A DNA stretch of 64,000 nt from Paracyclopina nana. Lineage: Eukaryota > Arthropoda > Copepoda > Cyclopoida > Cyclopettidae. Position numbers and translations under genes: made by a program. This document shows, piece by piece, positions 18,525 to 40,353 of the stretch (positions are counted from its first letter, which is position 1; each line of letters begins with the position of its first letter). The stretch spans positions 2,242,001 to 2,306,000 of the forward strand of contig JAGUCH010000009.1 of assembly GCA_019096065.1 (NCBI GenBank), in the 5' to 3' direction. Under the pieces are notes generated by a model. The model was given only the letters and a program-made list of their open reading frames with translations, ran no database searches and had not been told where the DNA came from.

Positions 18525-18530
18525 AACGAG
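18525..18530. repeat. Left target-site duplication (AACGAG)
   Basis: AACGAG directly precedes the element terminus TGTTGTATAG. The same six bases directly follow the other terminus at 40348-40353, and the flanks diverge beyond this. A 6-bp duplication is the hallmark of Polinton/Maverick integrases. Confidence 0.88.
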
Positions 18531-18609
18531 TGTTGTATAGTACCTACACCACTCTGACACAATTGCGGTAATTAGAAAGCCCCATAGTAGTGCGTGGGAA
18601 CCAAAATGC

Positions 18610-18772
18610 ACTCAGGGGTAAGTGCAATTTGCACCCTTGTGGGGGTGCAAAGGTGCAATTGCACCAAGGTGCAAAACAGGTGCTTTCTCAGGGTTGCACC
18701 ATAGTTTTTAGTGCATTGCACTTTTGGTGAGGGTCAGTCACCTTGAGTTGCTACGGGGATAAAGAGCTCAAA
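18610..18772 (+). promoter_or_regulatory. Terminal GTGCAA/TTGCAC cluster and IAP1 upstream region
   Basis: Within the first 250 bases of the element GTGCAA and TTGCAC recur many times. They include GTGCAATTTGCAC (18622-18634) and the perfect palindrome GGTGCAATTGCACC (18652-18665). A block at 18710-18746 (AGTGCATTGCACTTTT...GGTCAGTCACCTT) is repeated upstream of IAP2, suggesting a shared promoter. The same cluster lies mirrored at about 40106-40268. Roles as integrase, terminal-protein or transcription-factor sites are inference. Confidence 0.5.
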
Positions 18773-19366
18773 ATGGAGGAAATAGTCAAATTTGTTGCAC
18801 CCATGAATCACAAGTATGCTACTTTGGAAAGTAGACTCAACTCATTTGTCACCTGGCCCAAATACTTAATCTAAACCCCACTTGAGATGGCCAGGGCAGG
18901 ATTTTTTTACTCTGGGGTTGGTCATATTGTTTTTTGCTATTATTGTCATCATAAATGGGAAGAATGGATCAGGATGTTTGATCCTTGGGAGGAACATATT
19001 CTGTGGTCTCCCAATTGCCCCTATGTCCGATTGATGAAGGGAAAGTGTTATGTAGAGACTGTCACAGAGAGAGCAGAGAATGACGACGACTTTTCAATAC
19101 TTGAATGCATAACATGCATGATTTGCTCAAAGAATCCACGAACGAAGGAGAAGGATAAAAAACCCTATTTTGCAATGAAAGAAGAAGAAGAATGTAACAC
19201 CTCAACAATACAAAATGAGTGCAAAATATGTTACAAAAGAGAGATCAACATGATGTTTTTACCTTGTAACCATGTGGTGTCTTGCCTAGTTTGTGGAACC
19301 TCAGTCAACAGATGCCCTATCTGTAGGATTCAGTTGACTGGCGGAGCAAGAGCTTTTTTGTCTTAA
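18773..19366 (+). pseudogene. IAP-like BIR-RING gene 1, left copy, interrupted by a nonsense codon
   Basis: IAP proteins bind caspases through BIR domains and ubiquitinate targets through a RING. From the ATG at 18773 the frame opens a BIR N-terminus (YATLESRLNSFVTWP), meets TAA at about 18872-18874, then continues in the same frame. The ATG at 18887 gives a 159-residue frame. The BIR zinc ligands C-x2-C-x16-H-x6-C and a C-terminal RING-HC (C-x2-C-x11-C-x-H-x3-C-x2-C-x6-C-x2-C) are intact. The paralogue downstream has a Gln codon where this one has TAA. Translation from 18887 would give a BIR lacking its first helix but with an intact RING. AATAAA follows at 19401. The same stop is in the right arm. 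Confidence 0.75.
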
Positions 19367-19522
19367 TTCTTTTTAATGTGCTCATTAGGTTTTCTCAGAA
19401 AATAAAGTCTCAATTTCATCCCAGAACCAAAATGAGGTAAAAAAAATAGAATTGGTAGTTTTATGCACACAGGTACAAAAGTAGTGCATAACAAGTGCTT
19501 TCTCATGAACAAAAGCACAGGT

Positions 19523-19589
19523 CCAGTGCAATGCACTTTTTGTGTGGTCAGTCACCTCTTGATGACTGGAGGAGAGAGAGCTAAAAAAA
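19523..19589 (+). promoter_or_regulatory. Duplicated upstream block of IAP2
   Basis: The sequence from 19525 (AGTGCAATGCACTTTTTGTG, then GGTCAGTCACCT) closely matches the block at 18710-18746 upstream of IAP1. Its conservation together with the coding sequence indicates that gene and promoter were duplicated as one unit. Confidence 0.5.
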
Positions 19590-20126
19590 ATGGATCATAT
19601 AATTATATTTAGAGAAACCATGAACAAAAAGTATGCTACTCTGGAAAGTAGACTCAAATCATTTGCAACTTGGCCTATTGGCTTAACCCAACGCCCTATT
19701 AAAATGGCAAAGGCAGGATTTTTTTACTCTGGGTGTGGAGATAGTGTCTACTGCTACTATTGCCATGGTGGCATACATAGATGGTTGCCTAATGAGGATC
19801 CTTGGGTTGAGCATACATTATGGTTCCCCACCTGCCCCTATGTCCGTTTGATGAAAGGGGATCGGTTCATAAGACAAGTATGGCTAACTGGATCAACAGC
19901 GAGCAGGATCCTCAGTGAACAGAAAAAGGATGAAGGAGATGATGAAATAGAAGAAGCTAGGAGGTCAACGTTGAAAAATGAGTGCAAAATATGCTACCAC
20001 AGAGAAATTGGCATGCTATTTTTGCCATGTCACCATGTGGTGTCATGTTTAGTTTGTGGAACCTCAGTCTACACCTGCCCTGTCTGTAGAACTCAGTTGA
20101 TTGGTGCTGTAAGAGCTTTGTCGTAA
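19590..20126 (+). CDS. IAP-like BIR-RING protein 2, left copy (178 aa)
   Basis: Predicted inhibitor-of-apoptosis-like protein and RING E3 ligase, acting in the host cytoplasm. One BIR spans about residues 17-85, with zinc ligands C-x2-C-x16-H-x6-C and the typical AGFFYSG and DPW..H..W signatures. A RING-HC near residues 130-168 has all eight ligands. Cellular IAPs usually have two or three BIRs, so one BIR plus RING gives a compact viral-style architecture. The start at 19590 keeps the BIR N-terminal helix. Two AATAAA hexamers begin at the stop codon. The gene converges with the zinc-finger gene at 20174. It is a diverged tandem copy of IAP1. Confidence 0.82.
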   Translation: MDHIIIFRETMNKKYATLESRLKSFATWPIGLTQRPIKMAKAGFFYSGCGDSVYCYYCHGGIHRWLPNEDPWVEHTLWFPTCPYVRLMKGDRFIRQVWLTGSTASRILSEQKKDEGDDEIEEARRSTLKNECKICYHREIGMLFLPCHHVVSCLVCGTSVYTCPVCRTQLIGAVRALS

Positions 20127-20173
20127 ATAAATAAAAATTTCTTACATGTATCATACAAGTTTATTCGGAAAGC

Positions 20174-20569
20174 TTAGTTCCACATTTTGTAGTCATTGGA
20201 CTCTGTTTTTCTCACTTTGTTTGTTGCATGATTATCTAATGCACGACGATCATACCAATCTGGCATAATGCGAGTCTTTGGGTCTCTGGCTGAGGCAACT
20301 TTTCGTTTCTGAGCTTCCCCAAGGGCATGAATATTTTTTAAATGCCGCTTTAGTGAATTACCACGGGTAAATTCAGAGCCACAGAGGGAGCAAGCAAAGC
20401 GTGGTGCCTCTTCTATCTCCATGGGTGGTTCTTGCATGGGGTCAATGATAGTGTTTGATTCTGGCATCATTTGCGGCTCTGGGGCAACTTGCCCTGAGGT
20501 GGTAGCAAGAACCTGCGGGATTTCAAGGGAAGCAATATCCAGGTTTTCGCAAAAGCATGATTTGGACAT
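20174..20569 (-). CDS. Small C2H2 zinc-finger protein, left copy (131 aa)
   Basis: A single classical finger lies in the middle, FACSLCGSEF followed by H-x4-H (C-x2-C-x12-H-x4-H). An acidic, Pro- and Met-rich N-terminal part precedes it, and a basic tail rich in Lys, Arg and Asn follows. It probably binds nucleic acid and may regulate element transcription. I chose the ATG at 20569 because upstream in-frame codons are non-ATG. It is divergent from integrase, with about 126 bases between starts, so a shared promoter is likely. A minus-strand AATAAA lies at 20160-20165. Confidence 0.65.
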   Translation of the reverse strand: MSKSCFCENLDIASLEIPQVLATTSGQVAPEPQMMPESNTIIDPMQEPPMEIEEAPRFACSLCGSEFTRGNSLKRHLKNIHALGEAQKRKVASARDPKTRIMPDWYDRRALDNHATNKVRKTESNDYKMWN

Positions 20570-20695
20570 TTCAGCCTTGTGCAAGCGCAAGCGAAGAAGA
20601 GAAAGAATCACCCCTCCAACCTCAGGCACCAAAAGAGCCTCAAAAACCAAAAAGGGAAAAGAGAAAACGAATGAGCGAAGATCCCATCATTCATC

Positions 20696-21775
20696 ATGCC
20701 GAGGCTAAAAAGAGCCGTCAAACTGCTTAGAGATAAATATACGATCCCTGGACATCCAATTGCTTTTGCGGGCGTTGAAAAGATTCATCAGTTCTTCAAG
20801 GGGCAGCTGTCCCGTGAAGAAATTGAAGAGTACTTGAAATCTGTAGATGTCTTCACAGTCCATCGTCAGCCCAAGCCTAGTAAAATCTACAACCCTATTT
20901 ATGTATACCACAAACGCGACCAAATTCAAGCGGACTTGTGCTCATTTTTTCAGCAAGAGAAGTACAATCAGGGGTTCAAGTATCAATTAGTGATCATTGA
21001 TTCTTTCACCAGATTCGCTTGGGTGGTACCATTAAAGAACAAACGTGGACCAACTGTGCTAGCCGCCTTCTCCAAGGTGTTTGACGAAGAAATTCACCAG
21101 GCTAGGAAACTGATAGTTGATGCGGGAACCGAGTTCCTCAATAGGCCATTTAGGTCGTGGCTTGATTCCAAAGGCATCAAGCTTCATGTTCCAAGAACCC
21201 TAGGGAAGGCTAGCTTTGCTGAAGCCTTCATCAAAACTCTAAAATCGCTCATTTCAAGATACTGCACTGAATACAGCACCAGCTCCTTTGTTGAGGTGCT
21301 CCCAAAACTTGTGAAAAGTTACAACTTTCGGGTACATCGGGCCATAGGAACAAGCCCTGTAAAAGCGGAACGTGATCACAAAGAGCAGCTGCGAATCCGT
21401 GAGGCAAATTTGTTGCGCTATGCATCGATAACAAAGCGCAAGCCTAAGTATGAAGTGGGACAGCTTGTCAGGATCTCAAGGGACCTTGGCAAATTTGGTC
21501 GATCCTTCAATGCCCACTTTACCAACGAACTTTTTATTGTGAAGGAAATCGTCGACACAAAGCCTATTCCCTTGTACACTCTCACTGACTTAAAGGGCCA
21601 GGACACATTGGAGGGGAGGTTTCGCAATGAAGAGCTCACTGGGGTCAAGCTTTCACTTCAATTGCATGTGGGCAAAATCCTAAGCAAAGAAGGTGACTAT
21701 TGGACCATCAACTTTCAAGGGGCTCCACCATCATTAAGAGTAAAGTTGCATCGTAAAAATTTCAAGAAACAATAA
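20696..21775 (+). CDS. Retroviral-type (Polinton) integrase, left copy (359 aa)
   Basis: It catalyses end processing and strand transfer of the element into host DNA. The rve core spans about residues 70-230 with the acidic triad D80 (QADLCSF), D142 (VDAGTEF) and E176 (FAEAFIK); D142 to E176 has the near-35 spacing of DDE integrases. A C-terminal SH3/chromo-like segment (about residues 250-320, starting YEVGQLVRISRD) follows, as in Polinton and Ty3-type integrases. No clear HHCC zinc domain is visible at the N-terminus, though residues 1-60 are helical and basic. An AATAAA overlaps the stop. The 6-bp duplications at the element ends match this enzyme class. Confidence 0.9.
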   Translation: MPRLKRAVKLLRDKYTIPGHPIAFAGVEKIHQFFKGQLSREEIEEYLKSVDVFTVHRQPKPSKIYNPIYVYHKRDQIQADLCSFFQQEKYNQGFKYQLVIIDSFTRFAWVVPLKNKRGPTVLAAFSKVFDEEIHQARKLIVDAGTEFLNRPFRSWLDSKGIKLHVPRTLGKASFAEAFIKTLKSLISRYCTEYSTSSFVEVLPKLVKSYNFRVHRAIGTSPVKAERDHKEQLRIREANLLRYASITKRKPKYEVGQLVRISRDLGKFGRSFNAHFTNELFIVKEIVDTKPIPLYTLTDLKGQDTLEGRFRNEELTGVKLSLQLHVGKILSKEGDYWTINFQGAPPSLRVKLHRKNFKKQ

Positions 21776-21906
21776 AAAGATGCTTCTCCACTTAACTTCT
21801 AAACCGGAAACACCTCATTTAGCTAGCGTGAAGTTGCCCAAGAGCGGGGGCCTAGAATGTGGGGGTGCTTTCAGTTTGCTTTTCATCTAGTTTCATCAAC
21901 GAATCT

Positions 21907-23376
21907 ATGCCTATCAATCCTGATCTGCCGGCCATGGCACTACTTGATACTGGCTTGGATGTTTCAAAAGAGTCATTGCTCAATTCAGCCGGTATTTATC
22001 TGCAACATGTACCCCTGTCCTTGTTTCACTTAACATTTTTACTCTCAAAAGAGCACACTAATCAAACACACCTAAAAGTAACTTATGATCCTGCCAGAGA
22101 TGCTGTCTACCTGCTCTATCCCACTCTGCAAATCCCTTTCCCATACTTGTGGGTGCATGAAGGTTTGTTCAAGTTCTTGTGGAGAAATACAGAGCCAAGC
22201 CAGGTTGCATCATTCAACGGAAAGCACCAAGTTGATGGTGAAACATACTTCTCATTGAGCATTCGTCACTGGAAGGTCAAGTCTCAACACTATGTTTTTT
22301 TGTCAAGTAATGGTAACCTTTCAGATTCACTGCCGACACTGTACAAGCCTATTGTGCACCTGACCTGTCCCCAACTTTTGCACCCACCATTTGTTGGACC
22401 ACCCATCATTGCATCCATGGAAGTTGCATCGCCTCAGCAACATGTGTATGTTGAAAAGCAATTTAGAAATGCCCACTTTTTTGCTCTTTCCAAAGATTTC
22501 GAATCTGAGTTTGTTATTCAGTTATCTGACTCTGAAGGAAACCCACTGAGACTTCTACCAAACACAAAGCCTACAATTATCAGACTGTTAGCAAGACCGA
22601 TGGGAGAAAAGAGAGAACACACATTCTTTGCCACTGCAACATCAAGAGGAGGCAAGAAGAATTGCCTCTCTCTCTCTTTTGGATCTCAATTGAGTGTAGG
22701 GCAATGGAGCCTAGCCCTTGCAACAGTCATGTTCAGCCCTCGGTTTTCAAACAACCTCTCGGTTGAAGAAAGGCGAATTCATATTCTCAAAGAGTATGCC
22801 CCTAGTGCAAATAAGATGGCTGAGGAATTTGACATCATTATGCCATCAGGCATACTCTCTGTGGGTGAGCTCAAGCAATCTGTAACATCGCAAAGCAATT
22901 ATAGAGTCAAGTTGGACTTGGAGCCCATCCACCAGTGCGTCATTTTCCACCCACCAGAGAGCAATGCAAGGCTTACCCTCTCTATGAGCGCAAAATTGGC
23001 CCAGTTTTTGGGTGCCCAAATTCAAAAAGAGCAAATGAGCGCTAAATATCATGGCCACAAGATTGAATTTCCTCGGCCTGTTCAGCGAAGCAGTATTTCG
23101 CCCAATTGCATAGTTGTGTCTTGCAATGCTGTCCCAATTCAACCCATTGGAAAGCTTACGCTCCCAGCCCTTGGAATTGTACCAATTGAAACAACTAATT
23201 TAGAGGGTTTCATTTCATATGAGCCACCATCGCATCACTTTTTACCCATCTTAGTTTCAAGCGTAAGAAGAATTGAGTTTGAGCTCAGAACTCTGGAAGG
23301 CGCGCTCGTAAACTTTGATGAGGAGCATCCTGAAGAAGAAGTTGTGCTCAATCTAATTTTCAAGAGGAGTCATTAG
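21907..23376 (+). CDS. ~489-aa element protein of unknown function, left copy (capsid-associated candidate)
   Basis: It is read in the same direction as the integrase, 131 bases downstream, and converges on the polymerase gene. The sequence is beta-rich with no membrane segment or known catalytic motif. The C-terminus (RRIEFELRTLEGALVNF, then a charged stretch ending VVLNLIFKRSH) resembles, from memory only, C-termini of uncharacterised proteins found beside integrases in animal Mavericks. A structural virion role is inference. I chose the ATG at 21907 because the open frame upstream has no earlier in-frame ATG; a short upstream ATG at 21857 is in another frame. Confidence 0.6.
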   Translation: MPINPDLPAMALLDTGLDVSKESLLNSAGIYLQHVPLSLFHLTFLLSKEHTNQTHLKVTYDPARDAVYLLYPTLQIPFPYLWVHEGLFKFLWRNTEPSQVASFNGKHQVDGETYFSLSIRHWKVKSQHYVFLSSNGNLSDSLPTLYKPIVHLTCPQLLHPPFVGPPIIASMEVASPQQHVYVEKQFRNAHFFALSKDFESEFVIQLSDSEGNPLRLLPNTKPTIIRLLARPMGEKREHTFFATATSRGGKKNCLSLSFGSQLSVGQWSLALATVMFSPRFSNNLSVEERRIHILKEYAPSANKMAEEFDIIMPSGILSVGELKQSVTSQSNYRVKLDLEPIHQCVIFHPPESNARLTLSMSAKLAQFLGAQIQKEQMSAKYHGHKIEFPRPVQRSSISPNCIVVSCNAVPIQPIGKLTLPALGIVPIETTNLEGFISYEPPSHHFLPILVSSVRRIEFELRTLEGALVNFDEEHPEEEVVLNLIFKRSH

Positions 23377-23505
23377 TTATGTGTACTTGGAATTTTTTTA
23401 TTATGATCTGATATTGAAAGAAAAACCAAAAAAACCGAATAAAAAAAAATGGGTTGTTGTAGTAAATAAACACAACAATAAGAAAGGGAAAAAAGTCCTC
23501 ATTCA

Positions 23506-26500
23506 TTATTTGCATTCATCCACTCCCCTCAGCATGGTTTCTTGCTCCACTGATAGCCCCAAACATCTTCTGCATTTGCCCTTGAAAATGACAATTTCAG
23601 GTGAGCCAAGCGGACAACTGTGGTTGGAACAATCAAACCAATGACGCTTGAGGTCAGTGATGGTGAGGCATTTTTTTTTGAATCCATATGTCCCAAGCAA
23701 AAAAGTTTTCATGCGAATGCCGTAAAAAGTGGCGTATTTTCTCTTTTTTTCAATGTAGGTTTGAAAGTAGTCCTCGAATGTAAACTCTTTTTCTACTAGT
23801 CTTGAGGGGACACCTTTGCACCGCTTGTGCACCAAAGTTGCACCTTGCTTTGCTATCTTGAGCGCATAAGACTTGGGTCGAAGTGCAACACACTCCAAAA
23901 TTTCTTCGTCACCATTCACTTCAAGCTTCCAAAGATGCGGGTGATTTTTACGTGAATCATCATGCATTTCATGCTCTCTTGGAAAGTTTGAAGTATCTAA
24001 GAGATGCTTGAGACGGTGCAAATCTTTATCGGCATTCTTCTTGTCCACTTTGATGATGTATGAATCTGTGTCATGGTACTGAACTGAGAGACTGTCTGGC
24101 CAAACAGCGGCAAATTCAAAGTACAAATCATTATAAACTTTGTTTTTGGCCAACTCGAGAATGGCAAAAGCAAGGTAAATTGGCTTATTCAGGTGAACAC
24201 GCTTTGGTTGCATGTAAACAAATGTCAATCCTGAGCCCAGCTCTTTGAACCCCTTGAAGTTTGATGAGTTAACCCACTTTTGGATGTCAACGGGTCTTTT
24301 AGATACTTTCAGCTCAATGTAGCTGCGTACCTGCTCATTAGTTATTCCATAAATGGAGTTGGGGATAGACTTCAGCATGTTGCCTTCAAACTTTGTCTTT
24401 GCCCTGGCTCTGCGTTTGAGAAAATCCATCATAAAGTCTTGGCCAAAGGGGCGCTGATCAAATTCCAAAATTGAGTGGATTTTGTCCAATCGCATGCCTA
24501 TCCTAAGATAAGTTTGCAGCGTTGCCAAGTGGGTCATGTAATTCTTGCGTGGGAAATATGTTGCTGTGAGCAGTTTTTGTTGAAACTTATCCCGTCCCTC
24601 AATGTCCTTCATGAGGCGCCTAGTGAAGGCGGATACCATGTCTTGATCCACCGTCAGTGATTCAGGGCAGAGTGGAAAGTCACTTGTCTTCAAACAGATA
24701 CTTGCGGGGTAGTGCAAATCAACAAGAACAAAGTACCCTTTCCCCTCTGCCAAGGGGTTGATATCCATCAGGGGGAAATGCTCCACCTCTGCCGGTGAGA
24801 GCCACCGAAAACCACCAACTGGCAAGCTTAGCATAAAGCAAGAGCAATAAAGGCTATTTGCATCAATGTAATACACTGAGGCATCATCGGTTTTAGTGGT
24901 GTGATGCATGGAGGCAGAGCAAAGCCCTCCTCTGATTTGGGACTCAAACAGCTTGTAAGTGTCCAAATCGGTCAACAGTTCTAGCTCAACCTTGGTGAGC
25001 TTGAGAAATGAATCAAACCCCATCGATGGAAGAGTCATGTACCTCAGACTTTCAAGGCCCAGCGTCTCCATCATTTGCGATCGGTACACTTGCATGACCT
25101 CTGCCAATAGCAGGGTATCCAGATGCATGTACACCACCATGTAGTCTAGCATGGTCTGACATTCCAGCATTCTAAAGAGTTCCTTGCCTTTAGCATGTTC
25201 CTCTTTGGTAGCTGAGAAGTCTTGAATCAAGTCGCTGTAAAAGTGATCCCGAGCGGGAAACTCATGCCATACCTTGAGAGACTCAACACTGGTCACCAAC
25301 TGGTAGGGAAACGGTGCTTTAGTCAAAAGTTTTTCTTTTCGACTCAAATCAAAGGTTCCTTGCTTGTTCTTGCAAAGATCCGATTGGGCAAGAATCGGAT
25401 ATTTGTGGTTGCTGGCTTCCAGTGTCTTGGCTAAAGTGGCTAGGCTTGAGTTCAAATGATGCATACTGTCAATGCAAATGAAGCTGTTGAACTGCAGGCA
25501 ACTCAGCTTTTCCATGTTTTTTGGCAAAGCTTTGATGCTTCGAACGTGGTTATTTTCAATGCCTTTCAGAATGAAGGAAACATCATAGTGAAAAAGGTTG
25601 TGCATGACCACCACAATTTTCTGAGCTGAATCAGCCGCTTTCATGTTGCAAACATGGTGAGCGGCACCAATAAAGGCCCCTGAATTGTGGTTATGATGGG
25701 CCACAATGCGCTGGTATCCATCAGGGAGTTGATGCTGGGAACCATACCTCACGTCATAAACAGGATCAAAAGGCTCCAGACACAAGCAGCATCTTGGAGC
25801 GTCAAAAAAGCTATCCCATTCCCTGGCTCCCAAGGCAGCTGGGACAGAGGCCGAAATTTTTTTCAGCAGCAAAGGCTCCAGGTCCAGCAAGGCTCGGACA
25901 AATTTGGTGCCAGCACATCGAGCATCGCAAGTATCCCAAGCTTCATGAAGAAGGCGGCTTTCATGGTCAACAACCACAAATGAATATGAAATGGCTTCAT
26001 GAGAGTGAGTTTGCTCTGTGTATGGTGAATCCGAGTGTGAGTTGCATTTGCATTTTGCACCTATAGCAGTTTTTTCCAGGACGCACTTTTGGCAGGGCTG
26101 TTGCGTTGGCAAAAGAGCAGACTCAAAGTCACCATAGATGACGATTGGAGCTTGTATTTGACGATTTGTATTCTTAAATTGTAGAATGGGAGGCAAACCG
26201 TCATCAGTTCTTCGTGGCATGATTTCCTCGGGACCAAAAACAGGAAACGTGCCATCGATGTAATGGGAATACACGCAACACTTGTTTTGATGCTCTTCCA
26301 GTTTGGTAAATGAATAAAAGGTGTTTAAGCATCTTTCGCAAAATTTGCGACGTGTGTTCCTTGATTCCTGAGCTCCATGCTTGTAGGGAGCTAAAAACTT
26401 GTTGATGTTTTCAATCAGCAAGTATCTCCATTGTGTTTGGCCATCTGCTGATGGAATTCTCAAGAGGGGAACCAAGTACTTAGGCCTGTAGTTTTCAGGG

Positions 26501-26748
26501 GCTTGCAATGCTGTAACAATTGGCTGAACGCTGTTGTCATTTTCCAAGGAGAAGAGATGGATTGCAAAATTAAAGGTTCTTCCGTTTTGATGAACAAATT
26601 TTTCCACAAACTCAATTTCATCCTCGGTGAAAGGAGGTTGATTAAAATCTTGGGGTGAGCAATCAATGGCGTGAGCCAGAGCGTAGTAAAAAGAGGCGCG
26701 CTCATTGACGTCAAAATGTCTCAAGTGTTGCACTCTAGGAATGCTCAT
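23506..26748 (-). CDS. Protein-primed family-B DNA polymerase, left copy (1080 aa)
   Basis: Replicative polymerase of the Polinton/adintovirus type, which starts DNA synthesis from a terminal protein. Numbered from the ATG at 26748: zinc-knuckle-like C137/C140/H153/C157; exonuclease I D207/E209 (YGDFES); a Cys pair at 320/323 with an endonuclease-VII-like HNH patch H351-C367; exonuclease II H383-N384..Y388-D389; polymerase motif A D629 (YIDANSLY); motif B K793..N797..Y800-G801; motif C D893-T-D895-S; and K959-S-Y961. All catalytic residues are present, so this copy looks competent. Length suits the family. It converges with the 489-aa gene; stops are 130 bases apart. Confidence 0.93.
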   Translation of the reverse strand: MSIPRVQHLRHFDVNERASFYYALAHAIDCSPQDFNQPPFTEDEIEFVEKFVHQNGRTFNFAIHLFSLENDNSVQPIVTALQAPENYRPKYLVPLLRIPSADGQTQWRYLLIENINKFLAPYKHGAQESRNTRRKFCERCLNTFYSFTKLEEHQNKCCVYSHYIDGTFPVFGPEEIMPRRTDDGLPPILQFKNTNRQIQAPIVIYGDFESALLPTQQPCQKCVLEKTAIGAKCKCNSHSDSPYTEQTHSHEAISYSFVVVDHESRLLHEAWDTCDARCAGTKFVRALLDLEPLLLKKISASVPAALGAREWDSFFDAPRCCLCLEPFDPVYDVRYGSQHQLPDGYQRIVAHHNHNSGAFIGAAHHVCNMKAADSAQKIVVVMHNLFHYDVSFILKGIENNHVRSIKALPKNMEKLSCLQFNSFICIDSMHHLNSSLATLAKTLEASNHKYPILAQSDLCKNKQGTFDLSRKEKLLTKAPFPYQLVTSVESLKVWHEFPARDHFYSDLIQDFSATKEEHAKGKELFRMLECQTMLDYMVVYMHLDTLLLAEVMQVYRSQMMETLGLESLRYMTLPSMGFDSFLKLTKVELELLTDLDTYKLFESQIRGGLCSASMHHTTKTDDASVYYIDANSLYCSCFMLSLPVGGFRWLSPAEVEHFPLMDINPLAEGKGYFVLVDLHYPASICLKTSDFPLCPESLTVDQDMVSAFTRRLMKDIEGRDKFQQKLLTATYFPRKNYMTHLATLQTYLRIGMRLDKIHSILEFDQRPFGQDFMMDFLKRRARAKTKFEGNMLKSIPNSIYGITNEQVRSYIELKVSKRPVDIQKWVNSSNFKGFKELGSGLTFVYMQPKRVHLNKPIYLAFAILELAKNKVYNDLYFEFAAVWPDSLSVQYHDTDSYIIKVDKKNADKDLHRLKHLLDTSNFPREHEMHDDSRKNHPHLWKLEVNGDEEILECVALRPKSYALKIAKQGATLVHKRCKGVPSRLVEKEFTFEDYFQTYIEKKRKYATFYGIRMKTFLLGTYGFKKKCLTITDLKRHWFDCSNHSCPLGSPEIVIFKGKCRRCLGLSVEQETMLRGVDECK

Positions 26749-27017
26749 GGCGACTAAAGAACATGAGTGAGTCAACTGTGGGAATTCTATGCACGGGAGA
26801 AAGACTGAGAAAGCCTACCTGTCCCGCAAAACAGACATGTCTAAATGAAGAGTAATTTGACCGAGAAGTGGAATGTGCTTTTATTTACGTGTGATGAATA
26901 AATCATTGTGCACCATGATTGGTGGACTAGTTGATATGGACTAGTGGAGGTATTGGGGAAAAAAAAATGGTATCAGAAAATAATATGAGATCATGGACAC
27001 GCATGCAATAAAAAAAG

Positions 27018-27676
27018 CTATTCAATTAACTCATTGAAACCTTCATCCTCATCAGCCACTTCTCTTATGCGAACCCCGATGTCAATGCGTACGCTCTTTG
27101 CTCCCTCGATTTGACCACTAGGAATTAGAGCCTCCAGCTTGGTCACAGTTTCTTGCGCAGTGCGCATGTTCCTCGTAATGAGTCTCGAGGTGCGCTTGAG
27201 TGCATCATCATCCAATGTGCCGAAGCAAAAGATTGCTGCAATGGCAATGTTGACAATCTTGAGTGGCATTGCTGACACCCTCGCGAATGCAAATGGCGAC
27301 AGCATGGTGCGTCTTTGAATGTGCGCCTCAACATGAGAGACATAGGGTGAGGTCATCATGCTGGAGGGATCATGAAGTGCCATAAAATCCTTGACAATCC
27401 TCTTCATTGCATGGATGTGAGCTTTGAGCTCATAACATTGAAAGATGCCACGATGTATTGCCTAGAGTAAAAAAAAAATGCATGTAAGGTGAAGCTATTG
27501 CATAACCTATATCACACCTGACTGCATTCAAAACCATCAAGCCCCTCAAGGCCGGTGAGAGCAATGGTACCCGATTCAGCGCTGTCCTTTGCTGCTTGGA
27601 GATGGAATTCAATGCACCAAAAGAAGCGATCGACATCGATTGGACGGAGCACACCAAATTGAATCTCCATGTTCAT
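27018..27676 (-). CDS. Spliced 200-aa element gene, left copy
   Basis: Coding exons are 27518-27676 and 27018-27461, joined across a 56-base intron (GTGTGA..CTCTAG) that keeps the frame (53 plus 147 codons). The protein starts MNMEIQFGVLRPIDVDRFFW, and its second part has long helical stretches and an acidic C-terminus. I do not recognise it. The first exon is preceded by a good acceptor (TTTTTTGTTACAG), so it may be an internal exon continuing from the C2H2 gene upstream; a phase-0 donor exists near the end of that frame. It lies about 270 bases upstream of the polymerase start. Confidence 0.55.
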
Positions 27677-27881
27677 GTTGTCGTCAAACAAAATCTGTAA
27701 CAAAAAACCAGTGTCGGTGAGAAAAAAGAGTGTTTTGTGTGCTGGGAGGGGTGCAAAATGGGGCAAGAACCATACTTTAATTCTTTATGCATTTTTTTTG
27801 TCAGTTTTATGCCTTTTTTTTTTCCTTTGCCTCTGAGGATAATTTTTTTCACTTTTAATGTTTTTTTTTGTCTTTTTTTCA

Positions 27882-28562: not shown

Positions 28563-28642
28563 GACCTAAGAAGCCAAAATTGGTGGGGATAAGAGAAAAA
28601 GTGTAAGAATCGCAATGGTAGCATGAGGATCGAAGAGACGCT

Positions 28643-30248: not shown

Positions 30249-30328
30249 AGCGTCTCTTCGATCCTCATGCTACCATTGCGATTCTTACACTTTTTCTCTT
30301 ATCCCCACCAATTTTGGCTTCTTAGGTC

Positions 30329-30968: not shown

Positions 30969-31204
30969 TTGGTGTATTTGCTCCCACAAGGGAGAAAAAG
31001 TGATGAAAAAAGACAAAAAAACATTAAAAGTGAAAAAAATTATCCTCAGAGGCAAAGGAAAAAAAAAGGCATAAAACTGACAAAAAAAATGCATAAAGAA
31101 TTAAAGTATGGTTCTTGCCCCATTTTGCACCCCTCCCAGCACACAAAACACTCTTTTTTCTCACCGACACTGGTTTTTTGTTACAGATTTTGTTTGACGA
31201 CAAC

Positions 31205-31863
31205 ATGAACATGGAGATTCAATTTGGTGTGCTCCGTCCAATCGATGTCGATCGCTTCTTTTGGTGCATTGAATTCCATCTCCAAGCAGCAAAGGACAGC
31301 GCTGAATCGGGTACCATTGCTCTCACCGGCCTTGAGGGGCTTGATGGTTTTGAATGCAGTCAGGTGTGATATAGGTTATGCAATAGCTTCACCTTACATG
31401 CATTTTTTTTTTACTCTAGGCAATACATCGTGGCATCTTTCAATGTTATGAGCTCAAAGCTCACATCCATGCAATGAAGAGGATTGTCAAGGATTTTATG
31501 GCACTTCATGATCCCTCCAGCATGATGACCTCACCCTATGTCTCTCATGTTGAGGCGCACATTCAAAGACGCACCATGCTGTCGCCATTTGCATTCGCGA
31601 GGGTGTCAGCAATGCCACTCAAGATTGTCAACATTGCCATTGCAGCAATCTTTTGCTTCGGCACATTGGATGATGATGCACTCAAGCGCACCTCGAGACT
31701 CATTACGAGGAACATGCGCACTGCGCAAGAAACTGTGACCAAGCTGGAGGCTCTAATTCCTAGTGGTCAAATCGAGGGAGCAAAGAGCGTACGCATTGAC
31801 ATCGGGGTTCGCATAAGAGAAGTGGCTGATGAGGATGAAGGTTTCAATGAGTTAATTGAATAG
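31205..31863 (+). CDS. Spliced 200-aa element gene, right copy
   Basis: Coding exons are 31205-31363 and 31420-31863, with the same 56-base intron, phase and length as the left copy. No difference affects the protein that I could see, making this one of the best-conserved genes between arms. It is followed by the polymerase start at 32134. Confidence 0.55.
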
Positions 31864-32133
31864 CTTTTTTTATTGCATGCGTGTCCATGATCTCATATTA
31901 TTTTCTGATACCATTTTTTTTTTCCCCAATACCTCCACTAGTCCATATCAACTAGTCCACCAATCATGGTGCACAATGATTTATTCATCACACGTAAATA
32001 AAAGCACATTCCACTTCTCGGTCAAATTACTCTTCATTTAGACATGTCTGTTTTGCGGGACAGGTAGGCTTTCTCAGTCTTTCTCCCGTGCATAGAATTC
32101 CCACAGTTGACTCACTCATGTTCTTTAGTCGCC

Positions 32134-35100
32134 ATGAGCATTCCTAGAGTGCAACACTTGAGACATTTTGACGTCAATGAGCGCGCCTCTTTTTACTACG
32201 CTCTGGCTCACGCCATTGATTGCTCACCCCAAGATTTTAATCAACCTCCTTTCACCGAGGATGAAATTGAGTTTGTGGAAAAATTTGTTCATCAAAACGG
32301 AAGAACCTTTAATTTTGCAATCCATCTCTTCTCCTTGGAAAATGACAACAGCGTTCAGCCAATTGTTACAGCATTGCAAGCCCCTGAAAACTACAGGCCT
32401 AAGTACTTGGTTCCCCTCTTGAGAATTCCATCAGCAGATGGCCAAACACAATGGAGATACTTGCTGATTGAAAACATCAACAAGTTTTTAGCTCCCTACA
32501 AGCATGGAGCTCAGGAATCAAGGAACACACGTCGCAAATTTTGCGAAAGATGCTTAAACACCTTTTATTCATTTACCAAACTGGAAGAGCATCAAAACAA
32601 GTGTTGCGTGTATTCCCATTACATCGATGGCACGTTTCCTGTTTTTGGTCCCGAGGAAATCATGCCACGAAGAACTGATGACGGTTTGCCTCCCATTCTA
32701 CAATTTAAGAATACAAATCGTCAAATACAAGCTCCAATCGTCATCTATGGTGACTTTGAGTCTGCTCTTTTGCCAACGCAACAGCCCTGCCAAAAGTGCG
32801 TCCTGGAAAACTGCTATAGGTGCAAAATGCAAATGCAACTCACACTGGATTCACCATACACAGAGCAAACTCACTCTCATGAAGCCATTTCATATTCATT
32901 TGTGGTTGTTGACCATGAAAGCCGCCTTCTTCATGAAGCTTGGGATACTTGCGATGCTCGATGTGCTGGCACCAAATTTGTCCGAGCCTTGCTGGACCTG
33001 GAGCCTTTGCTGCTGAAAAAAATTTCGGCCTCTGTCCCAGCTGCCTTGGGAGCCAGGGAATGGGATAGCTTTTTTGACGCTCCAAGATGCTGCTTGTGTC
33101 TGGAGCCTTTTGATCCTGTTTATGACGTGAGGTATGGTTCCCAGCATCAACTCCCTGATGGATACCAGCGCATTGTGGCCCATCATAACCACAATTCAGG
33201 GGTTTTATTGGTGCCGCTCACCATGTTTGCAACATGAAAGCGGCTGATTCAGCTCAGAAAATTGTGGTGGTCATGCACAACCTTTTTCACTATGATGTTT
33301 CCTTCATTCTGAAAGGCATTGAACATAACCACGTTCATCGCATCAAAGCATTGCCAACAAAAATGGAAAAGCTGAGTTGCCTGCAGTTCAACAGCTTCAT
33401 TTGCATTGACAGTATGCATCATTTGAACTCAAGCCTAGCCACTTTAGCCAAGACACTGGAAGCCAGCAACCACAAATATCCGATTCTTGCCCAATCGGAT
33501 CTTTGCAAGAACAAGCAATGAACCTTTGATTTGACTCGAAAAGAAAACTTTTGACTAAAGCACCGTTTCCTACCAGTTGGTGACCAGTGTTGAGTCTCTC
33601 AAGGTATGGCATGAGTTTCCCGCTCGGGATCACTTTTACAGCGACTTGATTCAAGACTTCTCAGCTACCAAAGAGGAACATGCTAAAGGCAAGGAACTCT
33701 TTAGAATGCTGGAATGTCAGACCATGCTAGACTACATGGTGGTGTACATGCATCTGGATACCCTGCTATTGGCAGAGGTCATGCAAGTGTACCGATCGCA
33801 AATGATGGAGACGCTGGGCCTTGAAAGTCTGAGGTACATGACTCTTCCATCGATGGGGTTTGATTCATTTCTCAAGCTCACCAAGGTTGAGCTAGAACTG
33901 TTGACCGATTTGGACACTTACAAGCTGTTTGAGTCCCAAATCAGAGGAGGGCTTTGCTCTGCCTCCATGCATCACACCACTAAAACCGATGATGCCTCAG
34001 TGTATTACATTGATGCAAATAGCCTTTATTGCTCTTGCTTTATGCTAAGCTTGCCAGTTGGTGGTTTTCGGTGGCTCTCACCGGCAGAGGTGGAGCATTT
34101 CCCCCTGATGGATATCAACCCCTTGGCAGAGGGGAAAGGGTACTTTGTTCTTGTTGATTTGCACTACCCCGCAAGTATCTGTTTGAAGACAAGTGACTTT
34201 CCACTCTGCCCTGAATCACTGACGGTGGATCAAGACATGGTATCCGCCTTCACTAGGCGCCTCATGAAGGACATTGAGGGACGGGATAAGTTTCAACAAA
34301 AACTGCTCACAGCAACATATTTCCCACGCAAGAATTACATGACCCACTTGGCAACGCTGCAAACTTATCTTAGGATAGGCATGCGATTGGACAAAATCCA
34401 CTCAATTTTGGAATTTGATCAGCGCCCCTTTGGCCAAGACTTTATGATGGATTTTCTCAAACGCAGAGCCAGGGCAAAGACAAAGTTTGAAGGCAACATG
34501 CTGAAGTCTATCCCCAACTCCATTTATGGAATAACTAATGAGCAGGTACGCAGCTACATTGAGCTGAAAGTATCTAAAAGACCCGTTGACATCCAAAAGT
34601 GGGTTAACTCATCAAACTTCAAGGGGTTCAAAGAGCTGGGCTCAGGATTGACATTTGTTTACATGCAACCAAAGCGTGTTCACCTGAATAAGCCAATTTA
34701 CCTTGCTTTTGCCATTCTCGAGTTGGCCAAAAACAAAGTTTATAATGATTTGTACTTTGAATTTGCCGCTGTTTGGCCAGACAGTCTCTCAGTTCAGTAC
34801 CATGACACAGATTCATACATCATCAAAGTGGACAAGAAGAATGCCGATAAAGATTTGCACCGTCTCAAGCATCTCTTAGATACTTCAAACTTTCCAAGAG
34901 AGCATGAAATGCATGATGATTCACGTAAAAATCACCCGCATCTTTGGAAGCTTGAAGTGAATGGTGACGAAGAAATTTTGGAGTGTGTTGCACTTCGACC
35001 CAAGTCTTATGCGCTCAAGATAGCAAAGCAAGGTGCAACTTTGGTGCACAAGCGGTGCAAAGGTGTCCCCTCAAGACTAGTAGAAAAAGAGTTTACATTC

Positions 35101-35373
35101 GAGGACTACTTTCAAACCTACATTGAAAAAAAGAGAAAATACGCCACTTTTTACGGCATTCGCATGAAAACTTTTTTGCTTGGGACATATGGATTCAAAA
35201 AAAAATGCCTCACCATCACTGACCTCAAGCGTCATTGGTTTGATTGTTCCAACCACAGTTGTCCGCTTGGCTCACCTGAAATTGTCATTTTCAAGGGCAA
35301 ATGCAGAAGATGTTTGGGGCTATCCCGAGTGGAGCAAGAAACCATGCTGAGGGGAGTGGATGAATGCAAATAA
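32134..35373 (+). pseudogene. Protein-primed family-B DNA polymerase, right copy, frameshifted
   Basis: Mirror of 23506-26748. Losses of two and one bases near 32812-32850 change a short segment but restore frame. A one-base loss near 33200 shifts the frame, giving TGA at 33235-33237 in the HNH-like region. Further differences near 33519-33575 include an in-frame TGA. Downstream the frame is open from about 33577 to the stop and keeps motifs A, B, C and KxY, with a three-base insertion near 35330. As written it cannot make a full polymerase. Confidence 0.75.
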
Positions 35374-35504
35374 TGAATGAGGACTTTTTTTCCCTTTCTT
35401 ATTGTTGTGTTTATTTACTACAACAACCCATTTTTTTTTATTCGGTTTTTTTTGGTTTTTATTTCAATATCAGATCATAATAAAAAAATTCCAAGTACAC
35501 ATAA

Positions 35505-36975
35505 CTAATGACTCCTCTTGAAAATTAGATTGAGCACAACTTCTTCTTCAGGATGCTCCTCATCAAAGTTTACGAGCGCGCCTTCCAGAGTTCTGAGCTC
35601 AAACTCAATTCTTCTTACGCTTGAAACTAAGATGGGTAAAAAGTGATGCGATGGTGGCTCATATGAAATGAAACCCTCTAAATTAGTTGTTTCAATTGGT
35701 ACAATTCCAAGGGCTGGGAGCGTAAGCTTTCCAATGGGTTGAATTGGGACAGCATTGCAAGACACAACTATGCAATTGGGCGAAATACTGCTTCGCTGAA
35801 CAGGCCGAGGAAATTCAATCTTGTGGCCATGATATTTAGCGCTCATTTGCTCTTTTTGAATTTGGGCACCCAAAAACTGGGCCAATTTTGCGCTCATAGA
35901 GAGGGTAAGCCTTGCATTGCTCTCTGGTGGGTGGAAAATGACGCACTGGTGGATGGGCTCCAAGTCCAACTTGACTCTATAATTGCTTTGCGATGTTACA
36001 GATTGCTTGAGCTCACCCACAGAGAGTATGCCTGATGGCATAATGATGTCAAATTCCTCAGCCATCTTATTTGCACTAGGGGCATACTCTTTGAGAATAT
36101 GAATTCGCCTTTCTTCAACCGAGAGGTTGTTTGAAAACCGAGGGCTGAACATGACTGTTGCAAGGGCTAGGCTCCATTGCCCTACACTCAATTGAGATCC
36201 AAAAGAGAGAGAGAGGCAATTCTTCTTGCCTCCTCTTGATGTTGCAGTGGCAAAGAATGTGTGTTCTCTCTTTTCTCCCATCGGTCTTGCTAACAGTCTG
36301 ATAATTGTAGGCTTTGTGTTTGGTAGAAGTCTCAGTGGGTTTCCTTCAGAGTCAGATAACTGAATAACAAACTCAGATTCGAAATCTTTGGAAAGAGCAA
36401 AAAAGTGGGCATTTCTAAATTGCTTTTCAACATACACATGTTGCTGAGGCGATGCAACTTCCATGGATGCAATGATGGGTGGTCCAACAAATGGTGGGTG
36501 CAAAAGTTGGGGACAGGTCAGGTGCACAATAGGCTTGTACAGTGTCGGCAGTGAATCTGAAAGGTTACCATTACTTGACAAAAAAACATAGTGTTGAGAC
36601 TTGACCTTCCAGTGACGAATGCTCAATGAGAAGTATGTTTCACCATCAACTTGGTGCTTTCCGTTGAATGATGCAACCTGGCTTGGCTCTGTATTTCTCC
36701 ACAAGAACTTGAACAAACCTTCATGCACCCACAAGTATGGGAAAGGGATTTGCAGAGTGGGATAGAGCAGGTAGACAGCATCTCTGGCAGGATCATAAGT
36801 TACTTTTAGGTGTGTTTGATTAGTGTGTTTCTTTTGAGAGTAAAAATGTTAAGTGAAACAAGGACAGGGGTACATGTTGCAGATAAATACCGGCTGAATT
36901 GAGCAATGACTCTTTTGAAACATCCAAGCCAGTATCAAGTAGTGCCATGGCCGGCAGATCAGGATTGATAGGCAT
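35505..36975 (-). pseudogene. ~489-aa element protein, right copy, frameshifted
   Basis: Mirror of 21907-23376. A one-base length change near 36830, where GCTC in the left arm is read as TTTC plus a base, breaks the frame about 45 residues after the ATG at 36975. The remaining about 409 codons are open and match the left copy. Confidence 0.65.
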
Positions 36976-37106
36976 AGATTCGTTGATGAAACTAGATGAA
37001 AAGCAAACTGAAAGCACCCCCACATTCTAGGCCCCCGCTCTTGGGCAACTTCACGCTAGCTAAATGAGGTGTTTCCGGTTTAGAAGTTAAGTGGAGAAGC
37101 ATCTTT

Positions 37107-38184
37107 TTATTGTTTCTTGAAATTTTTACGATGCAACTTTACTCTTAATGATGGTGGAGCCCCTTGAAAGTTGATGGTCCAATAGTCACCTTCTTTGCTT
37201 AGGATTTTGCCCACATGCAATTGAAGTGAAAGCTTGACCCCAGTGAGCTCTTCATTGCGAAACCTCCCCTCCAATGTGTCCTGGCCCTTTAAGTCAGTGA
37301 GAGTGTACAAGGGAATAGGCTTTGTGTCGACGATTTCCTTCACAATAAAAAGTTCGTTGGTAAAGTGGGCATTGAAGGATCGACCAAATTTGCCAAGGTC
37401 CCTTGAGATCCTGACAAGCTGTCCCACTTCATACTTAGGCTTGCGCTTTGTTATCGATGCATAGCGCAACAAATTTGCCTCACGGATTCGCAGCTGCTCT
37501 TTGTGATCACGTTCCGCTTTTACAGGGCTTGTTCCTATGGCCCGATGTACCCGAAAGTTGTAACTTTTCACAAGTTTTGGGAGCACCTCAACAAAGGAGC
37601 TGGTGCTGTATTCAGTGCAGTATCTTGAAATGAGCGATTTTAGAGTTTTGATGAAGGCTTCAGCAAAGCTAGCCTTCCCTAGGGTTCTTGGAACATGAAG
37701 CTTGATGCCTTTGGAATCAAGCCACGACCTAAATGGCCTATTGAGGAACTCGGTTCCCGCATCAACTATCAGTTTCCTAGCCTGGTGAATTTCTTCGTCA
37801 AACACCTTGGAGAAGGCGGCTAGCACAGTTGGTCCACGTTTGTTCTTTAATGGTACCACCCAAGCGAATCTGGTGAAAGAATCAATGATCACTAATTGAT
37901 ACTTGAACCCCTGATTGTACTTCTCTTGCTGAAAAAATGAGCACAAGTCCGCTTGAATTTGGTCGCGTTTGTGGTATACATAAATAGGGTTGTAGATTTT
38001 ACTAGGCTTGGGCTGACGATGGACTGTGAAGACATCTACAGATTTCAAGTACTCTTCAATTTCTTCACGGGACAGCTGCCCCTTGAAGAACTGATGAATC
38101 TTTTCAACGCCCGCAAAAGCAATTGGATGTCCAGGGATCGTATATTTATCTCTAAGCAGTTTGACGGCTCTTTAGCCTCGGCAT
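37107..38184 (-). pseudogene. Integrase, right copy, frameshifted near the start
   Basis: Mirror of 20696-21775. The A-run just after the start (near 38172) is two bases shorter than in the left arm, so translation from the ATG at 38184 ends after about ten codons. The catalytic core with all three acidic residues is open from about 38150 to the stop. Confidence 0.7.
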
Positions 38185-38307
38185 GATGAATGATGGGATC
38201 TTCGCTCATTCGTTTTCTTTTCCCTTTTTGGTTTTTGAGGCTCTTTTGGTGCCTGAGGTTGGAGGGGTGATTCTTTCTCTCTTCGCTTGCGCTTGCACAA
38301 GGCTGAA

Positions 38308-38703
38308 ATGTCCAAATCATGCTTTTGCGAAAACCTGGATATTGCTTCCCTTGAAATCCCGCAGGTTCTTGCTACCACCTCAGGGCAAGTTGCCCCAGAG
38401 CCGCAAATGATGCCAGAATCAAACACTATCATTGACCCCATGCAAGAACCACCCATGGAGATAGAAGAGGCACCACGCTTTGCTTGCTCCCTCTGTGGCT
38501 CTGAATTTACCCGTGGTAATTCACTAAAGCGGCATTTAAAAAATATTCATGCCCTTGGGGAAGCTCAGAAACGAAAAGTTGCCTCAGCCAGAGACCCAAA
38601 GACTCGCATTATGCCAGATTGGTATGATCGTCGTGCATTAGATAATCATGCAACAAACAAAGTGAGAAAAACAGAGTCCAATGACTACAAAATGTGGAAC
38701 TAA
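38308..38703 (+). CDS. Small C2H2 zinc-finger protein, right copy (131 aa)
   Basis: Same length and same C-x2-C-x12-H-x4-H finger as the left copy at 20174-20569. It is convergent with the right IAP2 and divergent from the right integrase. No disabling difference was seen. Confidence 0.62.
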   Translation: MSKSCFCENLDIASLEIPQVLATTSGQVAPEPQMMPESNTIIDPMQEPPMEIEEAPRFACSLCGSEFTRGNSLKRHLKNIHALGEAQKRKVASARDPKTRIMPDWYDRRALDNHATNKVRKTESNDYKMWN

Positions 38704-38750
38704 GCTTTCCGAATAAACTTGTATGATACATGTAAGAAATTTTTATTTAT

Positions 38751-39288
38751 TTACGACAAAGCTCTTACAGCACCAATCAACTGAGTTCTACAGACAGGGC
38801 AGGTGTAGACTGAGGTTCCACAAACTAAACATGACACCACATGGTGACATGGCAAAAATAGCATGCCAATTTCTCTGTGGTAGCATATTTTGCACTCATT
38901 TTTCAACGTTGACCTCCTAGCTTCTTCTATTTCATCATCTCCTTCATCCTTTTTCTGTTCACTGAGGATCCTGCTCGCTGTTGATCCAGTTAGCCATACT
39001 TGTCTTATGAACCGATCCCCTTTCATCAAACGGACATAGGGGCAGGTGGGGAACCATAATGTATGCTCAACCCAAGGATCCTCATTAGGCAACCATCTAT
39101 GTATGCCACCATGGCAATAGTAGCAGTAGACACTATCTCCACACCCAGAGTAAAAAAATCCTGCCTTTGCCATTTTAATAGGGCGTTGGGTTAAGCCAAT
39201 AGGCCAAGTTGCAAATGATTTGAGTCTACTTTCCAGAGTAGCATACTTTTTTGTTCATGGTTTCTCTAAATATAATTATATGATCCAT
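38751..39288 (-). pseudogene. IAP-like BIR-RING gene 2, right copy, frameshifted
   Basis: Mirror of 19590-20126. An A-run near 39248 has six A where the left arm has five, which shifts the frame between the ATG at 39288 and the BIR. From the internal ATG at 39173 a 140-residue frame still carries the BIR zinc ligands and the RING. Confidence 0.7.
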
Positions 39289-39511
39289 TTTTTTTAGCTC
39301 TCTCTCCTCCAGTCATCAAGAGGTGACTGACCACACAAAAAGTGCATTGCACTGGACCTGTGCTTTTGTTCATGAGAAAGCACTTGTTATGCACTACTTT
39401 TGTACCTGTGTGCATAAAACTACCAATTCTATTTTTTTTACCTCATTTTGGTTCTGGGATGAAATTGAGACTTTATTTTCTGAGAAAACCTAATGAGCAC
39501 ATTAAAAAGAA

Positions 39512-40105
39512 TTAAGACAAAAAAGCTCTTGCTCCGCCAGTCAACTGAATCCTACAGATAGGGCATCTGTTGACTGAGGTTCCACAAACTAGGCAAGACA
39601 CCACATGGTTACAAGGTAAAAACATCATGTTGATCTCTCTTTTGTAACATATTTTGCACTCATTTTGTATTGTTGAGGTGTTACATTCTTCTTCTTCTTT
39701 CATTGCAAAATAGGGTTTTTTATCCTTCTCCTTCGTTCGTGGATTCTTTGAGCAAATCATGCATGTTATGCATTCAAGTATTGAAAAGTCGTCGTCATTC
39801 TCTGCTCTCTCTGTGACAGTCTCTACATAACACTTTCCCTTCATCAATCGGACATAGGGGCAATTGGGAGACCACAGAATATGTTCCTCCCAAGGATCAA
39901 ACATCCTGATCCATTCTTCCCATTTATGATGACAATAATAGCAAAAAACAATATGACCAACCCCAGAGTAAAAAAATCCTGCCCTGGCCATCTCAAGTGG
40001 GGTTTAGATTAAGTATTTGGGCCAGGTGACAAATGAGTTGAGTCTACTTTCCAAAGTAGCATACTTGTGATTCATGGGTGCAACAAATTTGACTATTTCC
40101 TCCAT
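39512..40105 (-). pseudogene. IAP-like BIR-RING gene 1, right copy, same nonsense codon
   Basis: Mirror of 18773-19366. The TAA inside the BIR is present here too, so it predates the palindrome or was copied with it. The downstream frame from the ATG at 39991 (159 residues) keeps the BIR zinc ligands and RING and equals the left copy. Confidence 0.75.
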
Positions 40106-40347
40106 TTTGAGCTCTTTATCCCCGTAGCAACTCAAGGTGACTGACCCTCACCAAAAGTGCAATGCACTAAAAACTATGGTGCAACCCTGAGAAAGCACCT
40201 GTTTTGCACCTTGGTGCAATTGCACCTTTGCACCCCCACAAGGGTGCAAATTGCACTTACCCCTGAGTGCATTTTGGTTCCCACGCACTACTATGGGGCT
40301 TTCTAATTACCGCAATTGTGTCAGAGTGGTGTAGGTACTATACAACA

Positions 40348-40353
40348 AACGAG
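40348..40353. repeat. Right target-site duplication (AACGAG)
   Basis: It directly follows the element terminus CTATACAACA and equals 18525-18530. The bases beyond (ATACTATT) are unrelated to the reverse complement of the left flank. Confidence 0.88.

Follow-up and report, generated by a model that had tools for sequence, protein, structure and literature searches.

Palindromic derivatives of a protein-primed linear genome are known from adenoviruses, in which symmetric recombinants and inverted left-end duplications keep one end of the genome, and long inverted repeats are found at the ends of Foldback-type and long-TIR (terminal inverted repeat) DNA transposons. In adeno-associated virus (AAV), PMC8235507 describes 5'- and 3'-snapback genomes (SBG), self-complementary forms that hold one virus end and are defective interfering or satellite particles replicating with helper functions; end joining is named there as the mechanism able to explain such forms. 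Among the self-synthesising Polinton/Maverick elements, TIRs and 6-bp target-site duplications have been published for intact vertebrate Mavericks, and Maverick virions had not been observed as of that report (PMC8097293). The subject here is an element in a 64,000-nucleotide stretch of the Paracyclopina nana genome (contig JAGUCH010000009.1, here C9, C9:2242001-2306000; the whole stretch is called the window, and positions without prefix are window positions). We report that this Polinton/Maverick-type element is a palindrome over its entire length, and we consider it probable that it is a defective derivative, produced by one snap-back replication error in an ordinary family of this type and integrated at least three times.

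The element resembles the Polinton/Maverick group (adintovirus-type) in its 6-bp target-site duplications, TIRs, rve integrase and DNA_pol_B_2 polymerase, to which ordinary copies of the family in the same genome add a P-loop ATPase-like gene and a capsid gene of the double-jelly-roll family. It differs from that group in that the inverted repeat is the entire element, every kept gene being present twice in mirror order, and in that the right half and the genes for the capsid and the ATPase-like protein are absent. Like the AAV snapback genomes it is self-complementary and holds one end, whereas the palindromes here are integrated with target duplications and turn back at a pre-existing short inverted repeat. 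AAV is a parvovirus and is not known to have an integrase of the Polinton kind. The adenovirus derivatives are likewise palindromic with one end kept, but they are known from cell culture and not as germline elements that integrate and disperse; none of the matches listed in a literature search dealt with them. The repeats of Foldback-type and long-TIR transposons are not known to consist, as the arms here do, of the gene set of a self-synthesising element with a turn-back at mid-element. No palindromic Polinton was found by title or abstract start among the matches listed in that search, which had subscription journals mostly outside it, and the excerpted texts of PMC12721341 and PMC11071308 hold nothing bearing on palindromes. 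We file this palindromic, defective, dispersing Polinton derivative as a new form of Polinton/Maverick.

In the window, the inverted repeat 18531-29425/29466-40347 was recovered as a chain of blocks running inward from 18531-19630/39248-40347 to 28526-29425/29466-30365. In a global alignment of the left arm with the reverse complement of the right arm, 10,853 columns are identical, which is 99.6% of the left arm's 10,895 bases; there are 19 substitutions, most of them within two clusters, and 22 indels, mostly in homopolymers. The window flanks alone (1-18500 and 40380-64000) yielded in total one inverted pair of at least 80 nt (87 nt, 84%), so arms of 10.9 kb at 99.6% cannot be due to chance. 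AACGAG lies immediately outside each terminus, and the sequences farther out are unrelated by eye. The sequence-only reading of the window had described palindromic arms around a 40-base loop, AACGAG at both ends and unrelated flanks, all of which the arm alignment and the junctions bear out. The structural features are as follows.

18525 to 18530, no strand: left target-site duplication AACGAG, 6 bp, from the sequence at the left junction
18531 to 29425, plus strand: left arm of the palindrome, from inverted-repeat search and arm alignment
18531 to 18984, plus strand: left-end stretch that in ordinary copies is the true TIR (about 454 bp, 94-96%)
20480 to 20500, plus strand: left-arm deletion scar (near 20489), at which the ordinary element has about 3.8 kb more, with microhomology of about 2 bp
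29419 to 29425, plus strand: GCCCGCC, left half of the turn-back stem, which all three ordinary copies already have
29426 to 29465, plus strand: central loop, 40 nt, a near match to the loop of the ordinary copies' inverted repeat
29466 to 29472, plus strand: right half of the turn-back stem, GGCGGGC, beyond which the ordinary copies diverge
29466 to 40347, minus strand: right arm, reverse complement of the left arm, from inverted-repeat search and arm alignment
38378 to 38398, minus strand: deletion scar of the right arm (near 38388), placed via the arm alignment
40348 to 40353, no strand: right target-site duplication AACGAG, 6 bp, from the sequence at the right junction

The assembly searched comprises 91.95 Mb in 10 contigs, and all copy counts are lower bounds. 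A probe of the outer 340 bases gave 21 matches, of which 12 at 97-100% identity pair into at least six elements; the other nine, at 71-72%, are internal repeats. All six copies are bounded by a 6-bp duplication, each a different one. Probes from the integrase and the centre matched singly in three copies (C1, C2 and the copy at 6.96 Mb of C7, called C7-6.96) and as a mirrored double in the other three (C9, the window element; C7-4.63, at 4.63 Mb of C7 and also written C7a; and C3, whose right-arm integrase is broken). The first three, the ordinary copies, have TIRs of about 454 bp and a unique second half, and in the other three, the palindromes, the inverted repeat is the whole arm. Lengths and duplications are listed by copy.

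C1, ordinary: 21,694 bp, target-site duplication ACCGAC
C2, ordinary: 22,355 bp, target-site duplication CGCGCC
C7-6.96, ordinary: 21,636 bp, target-site duplication CTTAAT
C9, palindromic: 21,817 bp, target-site duplication AACGAG
C7-4.63, palindromic: 21,807 bp, target-site duplication CACATT
C3, palindromic: 21,804 bp, target-site duplication GGTTGC

The occurrence of three palindromes at three sites beside three normal copies suggests, from the assembled sequence, that the palindrome moves through the genome as a unit. The proposal that one integration event had placed both arms together is strengthened by the two further palindromes with 6-bp duplications of their own, and the contrast drawn earlier with a normal Polinton, having TIRs of a few hundred bases and a unique interior, now has its counterpart in the three copies that share these termini and keep a unique half.

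At the exact place where the palindromes turn back, each of the three ordinary copies has an inverted repeat with a GCCCGCC/GGCGGGC core and a loop of 42-43 nt, the stem being 8 bp in two copies and 7 bp in one. The palindromes have the same stem around nearly the same loop, and beyond it their sequence is the complement of the left side. A stem-loop followed by the complement is the trace that a 3' end would leave on folding back and being extended on its own strand; a self-complementary element that turns back at a short inverted repeat has the form of a snapback genome.

The palindromes also share a deletion. The ordinary copies were read in pieces, about 3-4 kb of each (the mid-arm region) lying outside them, and the comparison of arm with ordinary copy covers about 6.5-7.0 of 10.9 kb. 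Against these pieces the arm matches over bases 1-1960 and again from 1959 to its end (10895), about 3.8 kb being absent between the two. All six palindromic arms have exactly the same junction, and none of the three ordinary copies has it. Read in C1, the deleted stretch encodes a 222-aa P-loop ATPase-like protein (best matches AAA_22 and Pox_A32, below cut-off), a 434-aa capsid protein and a TATA-binding protein (TBP)-like protein that exceeds its Pfam cut-off (PF00352), as well as the larger part of a TFIIB-like protein that falls just short of its own (PF00382, 23.5 bits, cut-off 23.6). The TBP-like and TFIIB-like genes are adjacent in the C1 piece L021 (L021:5190-5762 and L021:5711-6457), and such a pair is, to our knowledge, unusual for a Polinton. 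A 439-aa homologue of the capsid protein (P0003, 30% identical) was modelled with a predicted local distance difference test (pLDDT) score of 81, and the model resembles the double-jelly-roll capsid proteins of Sputnik, mavirus and Paramecium bursaria Chlorella virus 1 (PBCV-1); on this model, the capsid family of the ordinary copies has a double-jelly-roll fold.

The capsid gene is present in all three ordinary copies and has no match at any palindromic place, and the palindrome has no packaging ATPase, the ATPase-like gene falling within the deleted 3.8 kb. The right half of the ordinary element (a 178-aa open reading frame (ORF), a 289-aa ORF and a Rab/Ras-like fragment) is absent as well. 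The sequence-only reading had taken the locus for a whole integrated virus-like element and knew of no described class of palindromic Polintons or adintoviruses. Its palindromic, Polinton-type nature stands; the element is neither complete nor separate, and appears as a deletion and fold-back derivative of a co-resident ordinary family. Because the double-jelly-roll capsid gene is missing, we file it as a Polinton derivative and not as a complete Polinton; it has also lost the ATPase-like gene together with the entire right half, and it retains the integrase and polymerase genes.

Besides the deletion, the loops of the three palindromes have in common derived bases absent from all three ordinary copies (GCAGCTGCTGA vs GCTGCTGCTGCTGA). 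The loop of C7-4.63 is reversed in direction relative to the other two, as is expected if a symmetric element inserts either way round. Where the arm was read in every copy, 25 fixed differences separate the six arms from the three ordinary copies (24 with a stricter column filter); the 25 comprise 14 synonymous, 3 non-synonymous and 8 non-coding changes. The common loop changes, fixed differences and deletion together point to one founder of the three palindromes, followed by three integrations.

Comparison of the six arms with one another (10,220 of 10,895 columns, those near a gap in any arm being dropped) revealed 30 minority states present in two arms, 17 in C3, 9 in C7-4.63 and 4 in C9, and in no case did such a state join arms of different elements. 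One of the 17 in C3, at position 22939, is shared with ordinary C2. At 23412 the base of the ordinary copies is carried by a single palindromic arm, the right one of C7-4.63. Changes in a single arm (C7aR 25, C9R 14, C3R 4, C3L 3, C9L 1 and C7aL 1, with R and L for right and left arm), many of them adjacent or clustered, are probably assembly noise. Among the 30 concordant changes 20 are non-synonymous, 5 synonymous and 5 non-coding, the neutral ratio being about 3:1. The ratio of non-synonymous to synonymous changes differs between the fixed and the concordant sets (3:14 vs 20:5, Fisher P = 1e-4), which cover different stretches; when only positions that were read in ordinary copies too are counted, the concordant set has 11 non-synonymous to 3 synonymous changes (P = 0.001). 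Since the fixed differences are mostly synonymous and the concordant ones near neutral, the lineages would have diverged under selection and the palindrome-private changes would have arisen without it, as expected for defective genomes or dead insertions. Private changes of ordinary copies (5 non-synonymous and 6 synonymous in C2, 2 non-synonymous in C7-6.96, 3 and 2 in C1 and C7-6.96 jointly) are too few for a firm comparison. The concordance of the arms may stem from hairpin-mediated copying, post-integration gene conversion, recurrent fold-back or assembly consensus.

We propose the following course of events for the origin of the palindrome, set on its structure, the common deletion, the pre-existing turn-back repeat, the common ancestry and the separate integration sites, all of which are read from the assembled sequence. 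A deletion of about 3.8 kb, before or after the fold-back, would have removed the ATPase-like, capsid and TBP-like genes and most of the TFIIB-like gene. In the strand-displacing, presumably protein-primed replication of the family itself, a nascent strand would have halted just past the short inverted repeat. It would then have paired with itself across this repeat (a stem of 7-8 bp and a loop of 42-43 nt), and extension as far as the strand's own left end would have produced a linear palindrome in which both ends are of the left type. Because both ends carry what the integrase and the polymerase need, this product could have been copied and integrated like its parent, as a unit at at least three sites, with a 6-bp duplication each time. 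Ordinary copies would supply the proteins that are missing or broken in the palindromes (the capsid, if used; the polymerase for C3), and with the capsid and ATPase-like genes lost, any transfer from cell to cell would depend on the help of an ordinary copy. Copying through a hairpin may keep the arms alike.

Several points weigh against this account. The palindromes are known from the assembly alone. The turn-back repeat is not the strongest of its kind in the ordinary copies, three pieces of which (9.5-10 kb each) hold 58, 60 and 57 inverted repeats of at least 7 bp with a loop of 20-60 nt, and local single-strand folding at the place was no better than in shuffled sequences (z = 0.74; 154 of 200 shuffles equal or better); with a stem that is not the strongest and a fold that is not extra stable, the argument rests on position rather than stability. 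The polymerase of C3 is interrupted in both arms (419 + 682 aa in the left, smaller pieces in the right), so not every palindrome could make its own polymerase today. The near-equal lengths of palindromes (21.8 kb) and ordinary copies (21.6-22.4 kb) fit a packaging limit, but they amount to one data point as the palindromes share one origin. The concordance of the arms could have come from assembly consensus or post-integration gene conversion. Finally, the fold-back may have been recurrent, a deletion-bearing monomer lineage circulating and each palindrome being formed anew at the same inverted repeat. This would explain the 30 private changes present in both arms without homogenisation, but the six copies found to have such ends include no deletion-bearing monomer and the loop changes are common to all three palindromes, and we regard recurrence as improbable.

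Formation in place, in which an integrated ordinary copy was made palindromic by break repair and by gene conversion between arms or TIRs, with no extrachromosomal palindrome, is also unlikely. The 454-bp TIRs could guide such repair with the target-site duplication kept, and gene conversion, which the arms of human Y-chromosome palindromes undergo according to PMC3723533, would also account for the concordance of the arms; the same deletion, turn-back point and loop changes, however, occur at three sites, and three identical events would be needed, or one palindrome that then moved as a unit. That assembly or polishing of noisy reads replaced the right half of ordinary copies by a mirrored left half is likewise unlikely: the arm indels are mostly homopolymeric, the single-arm substitutions are clustered and biased to the right arm in two copies (C7aR 25 vs C7aL 1; C9R 14 vs C9L 1) and the noisy look of contig ends makes assembly noise real here, but the three loci have different duplications and central loops that differ in sequence and in one case also in orientation, and both flanks of each palindrome meet left-type ends through the scar within 2 kb, as in none of the three ordinary copies, so that reads slightly longer than 2 kb should tell a palindrome from an ordinary copy. 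Four of the seven contig ends examined show TTAGG-type repeats, the others being masked, another simple repeat or none (one each); telomere repeats of this type suggest an arthropod-type host, and the nematode spliced-leader pattern had no exact match.

On the favoured account, a single snap-back error followed by repeated integration, fold-back at a defined repeat leaves a trace in the genome consistent with linear, strand-displacing replication of the Polinton group, and the palindrome records a defective genome that could spread, a testable case of virus-satellite dynamics within an animal genome. It also cautions that a long palindromic element in an assembly is not necessarily an error. 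We advance only tentatively the further idea of a palindromic satellite lineage with a self-complementary genome, a packaging-limited length, helper capsids and rewriting of the arms via a hairpin in each cycle. If this were true, its genes would evolve as one though present twice, and the lineage would offer evidence from nature for the replication of Polintons as viral genomes, linear and protein-primed.

The genes kept in the window palindrome, and their mirror copies, are as follows.

18887 to 19366, plus strand: BIR-RING (inhibitor-of-apoptosis-like) gene 1, 159 aa (197 aa in ordinary C1)
19590 to 20126, plus strand: BIR-RING gene 2, from Pfam scan
20174 to 20569, minus strand: C2H2 zinc-finger-like protein, weak and below cut-off, start side changed by the deletion
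20696 to 21775, plus strand: integrase, rve core PF00665, 41.3 bits against a cut-off of 32.6, open in the left arm
21907 to 23376, plus strand: 489-aa protein, family unassigned, with relatives adjoining the integrase in other Polinton-type elements of the genome
23506 to 26748, minus strand: family B DNA polymerase (DNA_pol_B_2, PF03175), 1080 aa, open in the left arm
27018 to 27407, minus strand: 129-aa ORF, no family
27882 to 28562, minus strand: C2H2 zinc-finger protein, 226 aa
28741 to 29301, minus strand: 186-aa ORF, no family
29590 to 30150, plus strand: mirror of the 186-aa ORF
32068 to 35373, plus strand: mirror of the polymerase, frame broken into pieces of 389 + 604 aa
35505 to 36848, minus strand: mirror of the 489-aa gene, shortened frame of 447 aa
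37107 to 38171, minus strand: mirror of the integrase, open frame of 354 aa
38751 to 39254, minus strand: mirror of BIR-RING gene 2, open frame
39512 to 40003, minus strand: mirror of BIR-RING gene 1, open frame

The integrase and polymerase frames are open in the left arms of C9 and C7-4.63, their mirror copies being partly broken, and some of the frame breaks may be assembly noise. PF03175 was above cut-off in two scans, and a scan of the whole 1080-aa polymerase gave no Pfam match up to E = 1. In the two ordinary copies examined, the 186-aa ORF belongs to a longer reading frame, of 265 and 279 aa, which crosses the turn-back point. The two BIR-RING genes (18887-20126) are diverged neighbours and lie just inside the TIR. 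The 489-aa protein, whose relatives in this genome belong to several Polinton-type families, may be a minor capsid protein from the look of its alignment. None of 7,651 word-sharing candidates, or of 7,996 with an alignment as query, reached E <= 1e-3 in a database of 5.8 billion proteins, and its single-sequence fold (pLDDT 33) is worthless. Neither the polymerase nor the capsid alignment retrieved a relative in scans of IMG/VR, the one match to the polymerase in a PDB sequence search (E = 0.15) is meaningless, a PHROGs search gave nothing below E = 0.04, and no Pfam protease match occurred among the ORFs scanned in the window arm and in two pieces from a single ordinary copy. The Rab/Ras-like fragment of the ordinary right half (PF00071, L022:6465-6824) is possibly a piece of a captured host gene. 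Outside the element, the host-side ORF 61274-62032 encodes a BTB/POZ domain, and nine other flank ORFs scanned had no Pfam match.

An older palindrome of a different Polinton-type family (integrase 40% identical) lies at C9:805591-835548 (about 29.96 kb), with arms 83-93% alike in the larger blocks and 75-97% in shorter ones, a centre with a 14-bp stem and a 6-nt loop, and a capsid-like gene in both arms, partial in the right. At its outer ends neither a 6-bp duplication nor a TIR convincingly matching the centre was seen; for both reasons it is not counted as an integrated palindrome, and it may be a chromosomal inverted duplication. Single, unmirrored strong integrase matches with a capsid-family match nearby, from several Polinton-type families, were located at 5.88 and 9.67 Mb of C3, 6.46 and 14.45 Mb of C2, 1.92 Mb of C8, 3.98 Mb of C9 and 16.40 Mb of C1.

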